This document shows, piece by piece, positions 58,160-64,000 of a stretch of 64,000 bases of DNA. Within the stretch, counting starts at the first letter, position 1. Every line of letters starts with the position of its first letter. A model generated the notes under the pieces. The model made no database searches. It worked only from the letters and a program-made list of their open reading frames with translations, and was not told the origin of the DNA. The DNA comes from Rhizobium sp. Q54. GTDB taxonomy: Bacteria > Pseudomonadota > Alphaproteobacteria > Rhizobiales > Xanthobacteraceae. A program made the translations under genes and the position numbers. The stretch spans positions 94,653-158,652 of the forward strand of contig CAMDSH010000003.1 of the NCBI GenBank assembly GCA_945907045.1. Direction: 5' to 3'.

Positions 58160-58456
58160 CTAAAGCGGACTTAAGAGCATCTTCCGCATAATACTGTCAC
58201 GCGGCTGAGCTACCTTGGGGCAAGATTCAATCTCGGCCTCGATCCGTTCGCGGGTATGCTTCTGAAGCGCGATTATAAATGCGGATAAAAATCCTATTTC
58301 TGTGGACAAGTATTCCCGCTTCAGGCGGTCTTCGCGACCAAATATATGAGAATTCAACAACTTAGTCTGGCAGCGAGGATTTATCCCCGCTGCCCTGATT
58401 TCGGCGAAGATGTAGGTAATTAATCCTATATATATCGTTGACACCCCAAACCTCAA
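58160..58456 (-). other. Chimeric ORF: N-terminus encoded by IS inverted repeat, remainder in flank
   Basis: MRFGVSTIYIGLITY is the complement of the IS1595-like left end; likely fortuitous. Confidence 0.4.
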
Positions 58457-58466
58457 ATGCTAGTAT
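58438..58466 (+). promoter_or_regulatory. Transposase promoter element A
   Basis: TTGACA-17 nt-TAGTAT. Confidence 0.65.
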
Positions 58467-58486
58467 CTGGCCATTGGATAGGAACG

Positions 58487-59431
58487 ATGGTCATGAAAAG
58501 CACATTCGCTGCCACACACTTCCAGAACGATGAGGACGCGAGGAAGGTTCTAGAGGCGGTCCTATGGCCGGAAGGCCCGATCTGCGCTCACTGCGGCGTT
58601 ATCAACCACGCCTACCCTACCAAGCGCGCGGGTGTTTGGCGCTGTGCGGAGTCGAAGTGCCGCAAAGATTTCAGCGTGACCATGAAGACGGTCATGGAGC
58701 GTTCCCATATTGCCTTGCACAAGTGGCTACAAGCGTTCCACCTGATGACTAGCAGCAAGAAGGGCGTGAGCGCTCACCAGCTACACCGCACGTTGAATAT
58801 TACTTATCGGTCCGCATGGTTCATGGCCCATCGCGTTCGCGAAGCTATGCGCGCTGGCGGTCTTGGCCCGCTTGGCGGCGAAGGCAAGATTGTGGAAGCG
58901 GATGAAACTTATTTCGGCCCAACTGAAAAGCCGCGTCCGTCTAAGCAGCGCGGCAATCGCCCGTACAAAGTTGGTTCGCGCGGGCCTCGTGATAAGCGAC
59001 CCATAGTTTCACTCGTTGAGCGCGGTGGTAACGTGCGCTCATTCCATGTTCCAGTTGCTGACAAGGCGACTGTCTCGCAGATCGTGGTCGATAACATTCT
59101 GCGCGAGAGCCGTTTGCACACCGATGAAAGTCGCCTCTATCACGGCGCGGACACGCACTTTGCTTCGCATGAAACCGTGAAGCACAGCGCGAAGGAATAT
59201 GTGCGCGGTGACGTTCACACGAACTCAGCCGAAGGATATTTCTCGATTTTCAAGCGCGGAATGCGCGGTGTTTATCAGCATTGCAAAGAGAAACATTTGC
59301 ATCGGTATCTGGCCGAATACGATTTTCGTTACAACCACCGCTCCGCGCTCGGTATCGAGGACGGGGAACGTGCGACACTCGCCATTGTAAATGCGTCTGG
59401 CAAGCGTCTCACGTACCGTTGCACTCACTAA
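58487..59431 (+). CDS. IS1595-family (ISXO2-like) transposase
   Basis: N-terminal zinc ribbon CAHCG...CAESKCRKDFSV; KIVEADETYFGP; NSAEGYFSIFKRGMRG. Confidence 0.9.
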   Translation: MVMKSTFAATHFQNDEDARKVLEAVLWPEGPICAHCGVINHAYPTKRAGVWRCAESKCRKDFSVTMKTVMERSHIALHKWLQAFHLMTSSKKGVSAHQLHRTLNITYRSAWFMAHRVREAMRAGGLGPLGGEGKIVEADETYFGPTEKPRPSKQRGNRPYKVGSRGPRDKRPIVSLVERGGNVRSFHVPVADKATVSQIVVDNILRESRLHTDESRLYHGADTHFASHETVKHSAKEYVRGDVHTNSAEGYFSIFKRGMRGVYQHCKEKHLHRYLAEYDFRYNHRSALGIEDGERATLAIVNASGKRLTYRCTH

Positions 59432-59484
59432 CCCAACCTTCAAATATCAGGCGGCTCGTTTCGTGCGGTGGCGGAAGAAACAAT

Positions 59485-59673
59485 CTAAGCGGAAGCCGTA
59501 GTTTTCTTACGCAGCTTTCGTTTCAATTTTGGCCGTTTAGGAATCATGCCTTTAAACGGTTGTGCTTGGGCTAATTTTGCGCCGCGTAAAGCAGCTTCAA
59601 AGCGCTGAGCCGCTTCATTCACGGGGTATTGGTCTTCCATTTTTTTCTTCGTCGCGCGCGTCATACTGGCCAT
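59485..59673 (-). CDS. Small basic passenger protein of element A
   Basis: MASMTRATKKKMEDQYPVNEAAQRFEAALRGAKLAQAQPFKGMIPKRPKLKRKLRKKTTASA; resembles protein at 63207-63368. Confidence 0.5.
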   Translation of the reverse strand: MASMTRATKKKMEDQYPVNEAAQRFEAALRGAKLAQAQPFKGMIPKRPKLKRKLRKKTTASA

Positions 59674-59690
59674 GTCATTCGTTATATGTG

Positions 59691-60423
59691 TCAGGCGCTT
59701 TCGACACCTTCGCAAAAAGCCTTCAACTCTTCCGCCAGAGGCTTAAAAACATCATCCCCGATATCAATGGCAGCGGGTTTATTTTTTGCTTTAGAAAAGG
59801 CGGTTCCTGTTGATCTTGAAGGATCTGGTTCATAGGTCGCCGCTATCATGCAACGTAAACGCGCCTTGTCATAACGCTCTGTTTTCCACTTTGCAAAATC
59901 GGTAGGGCAACATTTGAAAAAACTCTCCATGCACTTTGCCTCGGCATCAAATTTCTTAGCCATTGCCTCAACACATAAGCTTTCCAAGCTGCCTTTTTTT
60001 CCATCGGCAGAAACAACGATAATAGATAGCGCTGGCCGAGTAGAGCTTTTTGCAATCTCTTGCGGCTTGTTTGGGACGCCAAACTCGCCGGCATCCGCGA
60101 CCTGTTTTTTTACAGCTTGAAATGTTTCGTCGGCATTTTCGGCAGCATCAACTGCAAGAAGTATTCCTTTCATTCTGGCATTAAGTTCTGGAACTAATTT
60201 GAAATAGTCATTTAACCTCGTGAGCATATTGATAAAGCCATCCCTTCCATGAAGGGCAGGTGCTCCGTCAACGACAAATTTGGGGTGAGGGGGAAATGGA
60301 AAAGAGAAGGGTGGGAGTTTATTTTTTTCTATTAGCCGTTCAAAAAATTCATTATCAGATGCCCCCCTCACAGAGCATCACCAAATTTGCTTCTAGGCGA
60401 TGAGGCTCTGGTAGCTCAACCAT
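59691..60423 (-). pseudogene. TOPRIM-like (DUF3226/RloB-like) passenger gene, frameshifted at G6 tract (60362-60367)
   Basis: Two frames join as MVELPEPHRLEANLVMLCEG|ASDNEFFERLIEKNK...GILLAVDAAENADETF...; one G excess. Confidence 0.65.
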
Positions 60424-60426
60424 TTT

Positions 60427-61488
60427 TTACACTCTTAACTCAAGCCCAGCTTCAATGAGTTCAACGCCCTTTGCTCCATCAATTATTGCAGCTTTACCAA
60501 CCTCGTTTTCTTGAAAAATTCGTATAAATGTAAAATCCTGCGGATGTTTTTTGATCACCGGCACTACGGATTTTAAAAATTCTGAACTATGTGTGGAAGC
60601 AAATACTTGAGTGTTATATTCGCGTGCAAAAGTCAAAATCTGTTCAGCCATTTTTTCGTGACGAGAAAAATGGATTCCGTTTTCTAACTCATCGACATAT
60701 GTTGCCGTCCGTTCAGAATGGGCAATGTGCAAAAGAATTGTGAGTATTTTATTCATCCCTTCGGACACTAAATTTATTGGTATCCTTCTTTTGGCCTTTT
60801 TATATTTAATGAATACCGTGTTTTTTCCCAACTCAATTTCTGTTCGAACATCTTCAATTTCAGGAAATTGCTCCTGCAAGGATTTTATAAATCGCCCCTC
60901 ATTGGTCTGCTTGCTCATATCCGAAAACCACTTCGCATTTTCGGATGAATTGAACGGCGACCGCGCTGCCAAGAATGTTGGGTCAACTCCGCGCGGCGGG
61001 GTTGGACTGCTCGCAAGTGTCCCATTAGGTTGAGTTTGCAGCATTGATTTTGTTGTCTTGCCTGTCGAGTCTGTCCACTCAAAAGCTACGGGGGAATATA
61101 ATTGACCAAGTTGCGGCGGCAGATTCTGATCTGTGAGAGGCAATAAGACAGGAGCGCCCGTATCGTAGTAAAATTTCAAAGTCCGCGTGTCTTCTTCTGA
61201 CCCCTTGAGAATAATTGAACCGACACGTCCTCGTTCAAAATTATGAAATAGGCTCAGATACAGCCCGTCATATAATTCTTGCGGCGATCCAGGCCCCATT
61301 TCCATGCTACGCCACACACGAAACCGTGCGCCTATTTCAGCATTGCTCACGCCAGCCACAAACAGTGCTTCTAAAAAACTAGTTTTCCCAGCGCCGTTGT
61401 CTCCGACAACTAAGTTGACGCGCCGGAAGCCCTTCAGGCTTAGACTTTCAAACAGTCTGAAATTCTGAATCTCGGCAGACTCAATCAT
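60427..61488 (-). CDS. AAA (ABC/OLD/RecF-like) ATPase passenger
   Basis: MIESAEIQNFRLFESLSLKGFRRVNLVVGDNGAGKTSFLEALF (Walker A); YVDELENGIHFSRHEK; VFASTHSSEFLK. Confidence 0.88.
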   Translation of the reverse strand: MIESAEIQNFRLFESLSLKGFRRVNLVVGDNGAGKTSFLEALFVAGVSNAEIGARFRVWRSMEMGPGSPQELYDGLYLSLFHNFERGRVGSIILKGSEEDTRTLKFYYDTGAPVLLPLTDQNLPPQLGQLYSPVAFEWTDSTGKTTKSMLQTQPNGTLASSPTPPRGVDPTFLAARSPFNSSENAKWFSDMSKQTNEGRFIKSLQEQFPEIEDVRTEIELGKNTVFIKYKKAKRRIPINLVSEGMNKILTILLHIAHSERTATYVDELENGIHFSRHEKMAEQILTFAREYNTQVFASTHSSEFLKSVVPVIKKHPQDFTFIRIFQENEVGKAAIIDGAKGVELIEAGLELRV

Positions 61489-61642
61489 TAGATATTCGGA
61501 CCGATGAGCCGGGCCTCCCTTTTTTGTTGGGAGAGTCATAGCACACCCCCAAAGCCTCTAGCGCCGCCCTGTCGGACAGAATCTAGCCCTAGCGGGCTGT
61601 GGTGTAAACAATATATATAGGTAATTAATCCCAATTCTATGG

Positions 61643-61671
61643 TTGACACCACAAGCCACAAATGCTAGTAT
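61643..61671 (+). promoter_or_regulatory. Transposase promoter element B
   Basis: TTGACA-17 nt-TAGTAT. Confidence 0.65.
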
Positions 61672-61698
61672 CTGACCATCAGATAGGGATTGGTGGTC

Positions 61699-62634
61699 AT
61701 GGACCGTTTCAGCGAAACCCGATTTCACGACGATGTCGCCGCTAGGGATTACCTAGAAGCGGTGCTGTGGCCTGATGGCCCGGTATGCGCTCATTGCGGC
61801 GTGATCGGCCATGCCTACAAGACGAAACGCCCCGGCGTGTTCCGCTGTGCCGAACCCAAGTGCCGCAAAGATTTCAGCGTCACCATGAACACGGTTATGG
61901 AGCGCTCCAAGATCGCCCTGCATAAATGGATGCAGGCTTTCCACCTGATGTGTTCAAGCAAGAAGGGCATCAGCGCGCATCAGATGCACCGCACGATGGA
62001 CATTACTTACGAAGCCGCGTGGTTCATGGCTATGCGTATCCGTAAGGCGATGGAAGCTGGGGGCCTCAGCCCTCTGGGCGGTGAAGGCAAGATCGTTGAG
62101 GCGGACGAAACCTATTTCGGCCCGACTGAAAAACCGCGCGTCTCAAAACAGCGCAAGGGTCGTCCTTACAAAGTCGGCTCCCGTGGCCCGCGTGACAAGC
62201 GCCCGATTGTTTCGCTTGTCGAACGCGGCGGTAACGTGCGTTCCTTTCATGTGGCCGTGGCCGACAAAGTGAACGTGCAGGCAATCGTCGCCGCGAACAT
62301 TGCGAAAGAGAGCCGCCTGCATACGGACGAAAGCCGTCTTTACACTGGCGCTGACACTTACTTTGCTTCGCATGAAACCGTGAAGCACAGCGCGAAAGAG
62401 TACGTGCGCGGCGATGTACATACGAATAGCGCGGAAGGTTATTTCTCAATCTTCAAACGCGGCATGAAAGGCACTTATCAGTTTTGCAAAGAGAAACACC
62501 TGCATCGGTATCTCGCGGAATTTGATTTCCGTTACAATCACCGAATCGCGCTTGGCTTTAGTGATGGCGAACGTGCCGCGCTTGCTGTGAAGGCTTCGGC
62601 TGGCAAGCGTCTCACGTATCGGGGGTCTCACTAG
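61699..62634 (+). CDS. IS1595-family (ISXO2-like) transposase
   Basis: CAHCG...CAEPKCRKDFSV; KIVEADETYFGP; NSAEGYFSIFKRGMKG; close homologue of 58487-59431. Confidence 0.9.
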   Translation: MDRFSETRFHDDVAARDYLEAVLWPDGPVCAHCGVIGHAYKTKRPGVFRCAEPKCRKDFSVTMNTVMERSKIALHKWMQAFHLMCSSKKGISAHQMHRTMDITYEAAWFMAMRIRKAMEAGGLSPLGGEGKIVEADETYFGPTEKPRVSKQRKGRPYKVGSRGPRDKRPIVSLVERGGNVRSFHVAVADKVNVQAIVAANIAKESRLHTDESRLYTGADTYFASHETVKHSAKEYVRGDVHTNSAEGYFSIFKRGMKGTYQFCKEKHLHRYLAEFDFRYNHRIALGFSDGERAALAVKASAGKRLTYRGSH

Positions 62635-62689
62635 TCCCGCTTTCAAACATCAGGCCGCGCGGTTTATGCGGTGGCGCAAGCGGAATAGG

Positions 62690-63148
62690 TCACGCACCTA
62701 GATTATCAAGCGCGCGAGCAAGAGATTCTCGCAATTCGTTTTTGACGGGTGTGTGACCATTCCCGTGGCGCTCAATTAGTCCGTCTCCCGTAAACTGGCT
62801 CAAGAATGGGTCAGAAATTGAATTTGGATTGCGTGTATTCAACAGCCGGCGAAGCGCCGCACGCGTTTCAATCGTATACTTGGCCACAATGCCGTGAATG
62901 TGTTTGTCTAGTTCTAGATCACGAGGAGATAAGACCAAATCAATCTGCGCCAATCCCTGCAACAGAAAGCCCCCCGCAGGCAGCCGCCCAATAAATGCCT
63001 CGGTGCCTTTAGGAGCGCGGCCCCAAACAATAAAAAATAGTGCCAAGATGGCCAAAGGAAATTGCAGCCAAATGTATTCCCTGGCGCTCACGGCCAACAT
63101 CGCCACGATAAGTCCGATCCCCAATGTCGTTCTGTCGCGGCTAGCCAT
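62690..63148 (-). CDS. Hypothetical membrane protein, passenger of element B
   Basis: N-terminal TM helices; intact ORF. Confidence 0.5.
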   Translation of the reverse strand: MASRDRTTLGIGLIVAMLAVSAREYIWLQFPLAILALFFIVWGRAPKGTEAFIGRLPAGGFLLQGLAQIDLVLSPRDLELDKHIHGIVAKYTIETRAALRRLLNTRNPNSISDPFLSQFTGDGLIERHGNGHTPVKNELRESLARALDNLGA

Positions 63149-63206
63149 ATGTGCAGGCTAGTGCCACCGCAGTACATAGGGCGAGTCATTTTTAGGTCTA
63201 CGCCGG

Positions 63207-63368
63207 TCACTTGGCTTTCTTAATTTTAGGCCGTTGTGCCTTAGGCCGCTTCGGAGTCAGACTTTCTTTGTGCTGTGGTCCAGCAATGCGAGCGCCCAGC
63301 AGCGCGGAGCGCATGCGGGCATTTGTTTCTTTTGCGTTGTAATCGTCAGACGATTTGGATTTTGTCAT
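63207..63368 (-). CDS. Small basic passenger protein of element B
   Basis: MTKSKSSDDYNAKETNARMRSALLGARIAGPQHKESLTPKRPKAQRPKIKKAK; resembles 59485-59673. Confidence 0.45.
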   Translation of the reverse strand: MTKSKSSDDYNAKETNARMRSALLGARIAGPQHKESLTPKRPKAQRPKIKKAK

Positions 63369-63903
63369 GAAAGCAAAAACCTTATTAGGGACGATCACCA
63401 CAGCCGAAGGGAAGAAATTTCCGGTTTACACTTTAAGCCGCTCAGAAGCCATGGCGACTTTTCGTCCCTATGGAGCCGCACTAGGCCAACTCGCTTTTTC
63501 TTGGAATACTCTTCATGACGCGCTTTCTGGAATTTTCAAATTTGTTGTTCTTTCGCCTAACATAAAAATTCCGTCAGCAATTTGGTTTTCATCTGATAGT
63601 GACTTCGCGCAACGAAAAATGCTTCGAGAAGCCCTACAAGTCGCTGACCACCTACCCAAAAAGCAATCAGACGATCTCATGTGGCTGCTCAATAAAATTG
63701 ACGAGTCGCTCAGGCATAAACGGAATGACGTTATTCACGTCCCAGTTAGCATCACCCGGGGTGTTCTTAATGATAAACTGCGCGCATGGGTGACAGCAAA
63801 CATGCAGTCCGACAATCCGCGTGCCAAACGATTTTTCACAAATGGGGCGAACAGAGCCGGTCCCGGGAATCTGCACAGGACGATAAGTGGAATTTCTGCC
63901 TGA
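63367..63903 (+). CDS. Hypothetical protein with HEPN-like RNDVIH motif, possibly 3'-truncated by IS3 insertion
   Basis: SLRHKRNDVIHVPV fits Rx4-6H HEPN motif; atypical C-terminus abutting IS3-like sequence. Confidence 0.5.
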   Translation: MKAKTLLGTITTAEGKKFPVYTLSRSEAMATFRPYGAALGQLAFSWNTLHDALSGIFKFVVLSPNIKIPSAIWFSSDSDFAQRKMLREALQVADHLPKKQSDDLMWLLNKIDESLRHKRNDVIHVPVSITRGVLNDKLRAWVTANMQSDNPRAKRFFTNGANRAGPGNLHRTISGISA

Positions 63904-63940
63904 CGGCGGGCACGCTGTGCCCTGCGAATCAGGAGAGACC

Positions 63941-64000
63941 ATGACAAGACGACCCCGTCGGAACCACACACCGGCCTTCAAGGCTAAGGTGGTGCTTGCC
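63941..64000 (+). CDS. IS3-family transposase OrfA N-terminus (truncated by window end)
   Basis: MTRRPRRNHTPAFKAKVVLA; AGGAGAG ribosome-binding site upstream. Confidence 0.75.
   Translation, partial: MTRRPRRNHTPAFKAKVVLA

Follow-up and report, generated by a model that had tools for sequence, protein, structure and literature searches.

An ATPase-DUF3226 gene pair with a frameshifted nuclease gene on an IS1595-family element: a candidate anti-phage module

The window analysed here, a stretch of 64,000 nucleotides in its whole length, carries two adjacent genes, one for an ABC/RecF/OLD-type ATPase and one for a DUF3226 protein, which are passengers of a single 3,197-bp IS1595-family element (58425-61621; Table 1). 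The original prediction had described this location as insertion-sequence cargo, and the description is borne out more strongly than it was put, as the pair lies inside one element and not merely near insertion-sequence copies. Up to the target-site duplication, the left flank of the element is 73% identical to an element-free site in a genome of the same genus (L176). The host DNA at the insertion site (58281-58424; L176:1497-1645) contains GGTAATTAATCC, which is found twice, 16 bp apart, in L176, and a DnaA-box-like TTATCCACAG lies nearby; the site is possibly a replication-origin or regulatory region. No PHROG match was found for the small basic ORF of the element.

Table 1. Coordinates of the features of the IS1595-family element, its passengers and the abutting element in the window
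Feature	Position	Strand	Remarks
Left target-site duplication TAATTAAT	58417-58424	.	perfect 8-bp repeat of 61622-61629
Left terminal inverted repeat CCTATATATATCGTTGACACCCCA	58425-58448	+	20/24 positions match right end
IS1595-family transposase	58457-59431	+	NF033547 6.9e-61; PF12762 7e-35; PF12760 2.8e-12
Small basic ORF, at most 76 aa	59485-59715	-	relatives suggest start at internal Met
DUF3226 TOPRIM-type nuclease gene, one-base frameshift	59691-60423	-	PF11536 7.5e-12
Six-G run, site of frame change	60362-60367	-	right behind catalytic Glu motif LCEG
ATPase ORF, ABC/RecF/OLD-type, intact	60427-61539	-	370 aa
Right terminal inverted repeat	61598-61621	-	pairs with left end
Right target-site duplication TAATTAAT	61622-61629	.	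next element begins directly after
Second IS1595-family element, abutting the first	61630-64000	+	transposase 61690-62634; right end not seen

The best start of the ATPase is the Met at 61488, which is where its relatives begin and where the start had been predicted. The Walker A (GDNGAGKTS), Walker B (YVDELENG) and H-loop (ASTHS) motifs are all kept, and 12 positions are invariant across 39 relatives, including G46, G51, K52, D283, E284, Q311 and H317. Pfam assigns the protein to AAA_15 (PF13175, 5e-21) and AAA_21 (PF13304, 4e-20), and among the PADLOC profiles it is matched best by AbiLi (160.7 bits) and also by PDC-M38A (128.3 bits, 1.3e-37). The motifs and the Pfam matches agree with the OLD/RecF-like ATPase ending at 60427 that had been proposed from GDNGAGKTS and ASTHSSEF. 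The predicted structure retrieved Rad50, SMC, PtuA, GajA, OLD and AriA in Foldseek, the fold being nearest to the Rad50/SMC heads.

The ATG of the partner gene at 60423 lies 3 nt past the ATPase stop. The opening frame reads MVELPEPHRLEANLVMLCEG and then meets a stop three codons on; past the six-G run, the +1 frame stays open for 226 codons down to 59691, and the original frame is interrupted by many stops. The segment LCEGASDNEFFERL to which the original prediction pointed in the partner is present, but it spans the frameshift at the six G, which had been mentioned only indirectly, in the words "repaired partner gene". The searches with the partner used either a single frame or a read-through translation, the gene sequence itself being left unmended; the PDC-M38B model matches the read-through protein at 27.4 bits (6e-07), which is weak for the window protein. 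Since the nuclease gene is frameshifted, the local copy is most likely an inactive, decayed passenger, and it is probably inactive through the frameshift unless the latter is an assembly error. That the frameshift is unreal or not final, i.e., an assembly or sequencing error of the MAG, or a phase-variable or slippage-read site that would leave the module active, is an appreciable though lesser possibility: a six-G homopolymer is error-prone, and the remaining frame is open over its 226 codons, with conservation extending to its end, so that the frameshift is either recent or artefactual. However, six G are short for efficient slippage, and broken nuclease genes are found in other relatives too, including a nonsense mutation in a Planktothrix chromosome record (L068). 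Programmed frameshifting at a run this short is a minor possibility, and we do not adopt it.

Only E19 and D92 are invariant across 48 DUF3226 sequences; G144, E147 and K186 are conserved in at least 90% of them, and most relatives have an acid at E+4. Two-metal cleavage by the TOPRIM domain of the Burkholderia pseudomallei OLD protein (BpOLD) involves E400, E404, D455, D457, T506, E508 and K562 (PMC6755086). The DUF3226 residues E19, D92, E147 and K186 and the acid at E+4 fit E400, D455, E508, K562 and E404 in order, the equivalence of E147 and K186 to E508 and K562 being one of order along the chain and not of superposition. At the level of sequence, the positions of an OLD-type TOPRIM active site are recognisable in the partner except for the second Asp of the DxD, which is Ala in the window and is changed to Thr, Asn, Gly or Ala in L026, L036, L040 and L041. 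This Ala alone need not mean an inactive enzyme, because the equivalent single change in BpOLD, D457A, did not discernibly affect cleavage (PMC6755086). Degeneration of the DxD was rejected as proof of inactivity, close relatives with undisrupted ORFs sharing the loss and the BpOLD single mutant being active.

The AlphaFold2 model of the nuclease, which was read through the frameshift with the last 21 residues left off, is confident, with a pLDDT of 88.9 and a pTM of 0.85. Its best PDB match in Foldseek is retron Eco2, at a weak E of 5e-3 and a probability of 0.91, with the BpOLD TOPRIM further down. The effector domain of retron Eco2 is a TOPRIM. The predicted structure thus favours a TOPRIM fold weakly to moderately. 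The sole convincing sequence relative of known structure for the partner is 2p62, an uncharacterised protein. The defence TOPRIM models AriB, mad4, AbiLii and GajA match some DUF3226 relatives at 1e-5 to 1e-7, and the sequence families support a TOPRIM reading of the partner. The TOPRIM-like partner of the original prediction is supported by the DUF3226 match, the active-site residues and the matches to defence TOPRIM models.

A scan with an ATPase profile, with one genome per species, yielded 80 loci from many phyla, which were fetched irrespective of the partner. A DUF3226 profile, seeded from loci found with PF11536, was then run downstream of the ATPase relatives: the DUF3226 gene directly follows the ATPase gene with no visible disruption in 70 of the 80, is broken or missing in 8 and is cut by the contig end in 2. 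In the reverse direction, a PF11536 search of 399 genomes from the phylum found an ATPase adjoining DUF3226 at nearly every strong match. The spacing between the two genes in 19 relatives runs from -26 to +22 nt, with a median of 0 and most values between -4 and +9 nt. The pairing of the ATPase with DUF3226 is strictly conserved. The adjacent, co-directional arrangement that had been described for the window, with the partner starting 3 nt after the ATPase, is seen, and it is not due to chance, for the same order recurs in nearly every relative.

The distribution of the pair is very patchy. It was found in 1 of 398 and 1 of 385 genomes sampled from the order and the class of the window, respectively, and no other genome sampled there has it. 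DUF3226 is widespread among cyanobacteria, Chloroflexota, Pseudomonadota and Bacillota and occurs in one archaeal control genome. The closest relative, in L026, is 47% identical and is flanked by 135-bp direct repeats, which suggests insertion as a cassette. No relatives of the partner were found in viral contigs or in phage and plasmid collections, and none of the ATPase in viral contigs; the plasmid collection gave eight matches covering most of the ATPase, all less than 25% identical.

In the 8 loci with a broken or missing nuclease gene, the lesions are nonsense mutations (L042, L068), a frameshift (L069), truncations (L048, L080, L082) and absence of the gene (L087, L101). The nonsense, frameshift and truncation cases are independent disruptions beside an intact ATPase gene, several of them within the first ~50 codons. 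Retention of the ATPase with loss of the nuclease is what would be expected of a costly effector, and together with the strict pairing and the selfish carrier element it could be taken to mean that the pair is a toxin-antitoxin-like addiction module stabilising the transposon, with the ATPase restraining a TOPRIM toxin and defence being a by-product or absent. We regard this as unlikely, since an abortive-infection effector predicts an equal loss pattern and the tally of broken nucleases is itself biased, the loci having been picked by a good ATPase match.

The surroundings of the pair lend little to its association with defence islands. The 114 proteins encoded next to the pair in its 20 closest relatives include many of housekeeping families and few with matches to defence profiles (a type III methyltransferase, HEC-01A, a kinase model and mad6). 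In this neighbourhood survey of homologues, by which the original prediction was to be checked, the association is weak, and the pair usually travels alone. These neighbours, the likeness of the ATPase to Rad50/SMC heads and the case of the archaeal OLD-family ATPase Cran1, which according to PMC12796447 acts in the cell cycle and not in defence, would be consistent with a housekeeping or genome-maintenance nuclease of the RecF/Rad50-like repair kind in place of an immune function. We consider such a role very improbable, however, because the extremely patchy distribution, the carriage on a transposon and the repeated loss of the nuclease are ill-suited to a core function.

The interpretation that we favour, and hold to be fairly probable, is that of a DUF3226/PDC-M38 ATPase-TOPRIM nuclease module on an IS1595 transposon, in which the ATPase would sense phage and license the nuclease, with the result that infection is stopped, the local copy being most likely inactive. 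Both proteins would be made from one coupled transcript and may assemble into a complex, as PARIS does or as a split OLD nuclease would. In it, the ABC ATPase would hold the nuclease and respond to a phage-derived signal, whereupon the TOPRIM subunit would cut nucleic acid by means of two metal ions and the conserved Lys. The substrate may be DNA, as in OLD and Gabija, or tRNA, as in AriB, and its cleavage would halt infection, probably at the expense of the cell.

The context inside an IS1595 element is the most informative new point, and the carrier may outweigh the pair in importance, as an insertion sequence of 3 kb by which an entire two-gene effector module would be moved. The transposase of the second, abutting element is 80% identical to that of the first, and the contig ends with the window, within an IS3-like ORF near this element (the start of the IS3-like transposase ORF was placed by eye at 63942-64000). 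Its cargo includes a 182-aa ORF (63355-63903, + strand) with an RNDVIH motif, resembling an ORF in ~13 sister elements; it has no Pfam match and is possibly a HEPN-type nuclease. Each of the two elements of the window has a short ORF rich in lysine (59485-59715 and 63207-63401, the latter likewise on the - strand). The two ORFs seem to belong to one family, members of which are also found in several sister elements whose cargo differs; the short ORF is often oriented divergently from the HEPN-like gene. In two cases, two different IS1595 elements adjoin each other and have an 8-bp duplication in common, TAATTAAT in the window (61622-61637) and ATAAAATT in L142 (L142:4126-9556), as if elements were stacked at a single target site.

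In the same bacterial family, 28 sister IS1595 elements with clear ends were delimited, 2.0-4.6 kb in length. Their cargo comprises an N6/N4 methyltransferase with DUF3800 (L141), a restriction-like three-gene set of a C5 methyltransferase, a HATPase-domain protein and a Vsr nickase (L172:2903-6207), a RelA/SpoT protein with a PDC-S33 match of 3e-98 (L142), DUF3800 (L139, L149, L166, L173) and, in ~13 elements, an ORF of ~190-290 aa with the RN/RDxxxH motif of HEPN nucleases, the putative HEPN label being a reading of this motif. We tentatively suggest, as something less likely than not, that the IS1595 elements found in this bacterial family serve generally as carriers of miniature conflict or defence cassettes. 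Such elements would combine a constant transposase end with exchangeable cargo (ATPase-TOPRIM, methyltransferase-Vsr, RelA/SpoT, DUF3800 or HEPN-like), and by stacking head to tail at a common target site they would build up small defence arrays with no need of a classical defence island. If sister elements do carry other conflict-type genes in this manner, this would illustrate how defence genes can travel in the absence of large islands.

Tn7-like transposons are known to carry defence genes (PMC8649781), and passenger genes are known in the IS1595 family (Siguier et al. 2009, as cited in PMC3129680). The element of the window resembles IS1595-family insertion sequences with passengers in its transposase, AT-rich 8-bp duplication, terminal inverted repeats and possession of passenger genes, and differs from them in that its passenger is an ATPase-nuclease pair; a literature search found no description of IS1595 with ATPase-nuclease cargo or of defence-type cargo as a general trait of the family.

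The original prediction had left the exact subfamily of the pair unassigned. An assignment can be made: PADLOC lists an ATPase with DUF3226 as PDC-M38, and the window pair is therefore, as judged by matches to profile models and not by the PADLOC system definition, a divergent member of this already catalogued candidate, which is itself only a prediction of phage defence. The PDC-M38A model matches all 39 ATPase relatives, and PDC-M38B matches 40 of 48 partner sequences. The window pair is like PDC-M38 in its ATPase, its partner and the two adjacent co-directional genes, but differs in the 27-bit score of the partner, the higher score of AbiLi over PDC-M38A on the ATPase, the frameshifted nuclease gene, the reduced DxD and the carriage on an IS1595 element. 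A literature search found no paper on DUF3226 or PDC-M38, no described function of DUF3226 and no proven anti-phage activity for any member.

The kinship with PARIS, AbiL, Gabija and class 2 OLD that had been proposed holds as far as the combination of an ATPase with a TOPRIM protein goes, but the named subfamilies fail on the partners. The pair resembles AbiL in that the best PADLOC match of its ATPase is AbiLi, a model that is not specific here because it matches all 39 relatives; the partner has no match to AbiLii (RloB) at E 0.1. PARIS likewise consists of separate genes for an ABC ATPase and a TOPRIM nuclease, and the window ATPase can be aligned to AriA, but the partner belongs to DUF3226 and not to the AriB family, and an AriB match at E 0.1 is absent. 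Gabija and class 2 OLD were rejected on account of two separate ORFs without fusion and the absence of a helicase within the element. OLD proteins of class 1, class 2 (Gabija GajA) and class 3 (retron Eco8) share both domains and almost the whole set of active-site positions with the window pair, whose domains, however, lie on two proteins, in an element with neither a UvrD-like helicase nor a reverse transcriptase. If the pair functions, it would do so in the manner of PARIS or of an OLD nuclease divided between two proteins; our data predict an OLD-type nuclease split in this way, with a defined active site.
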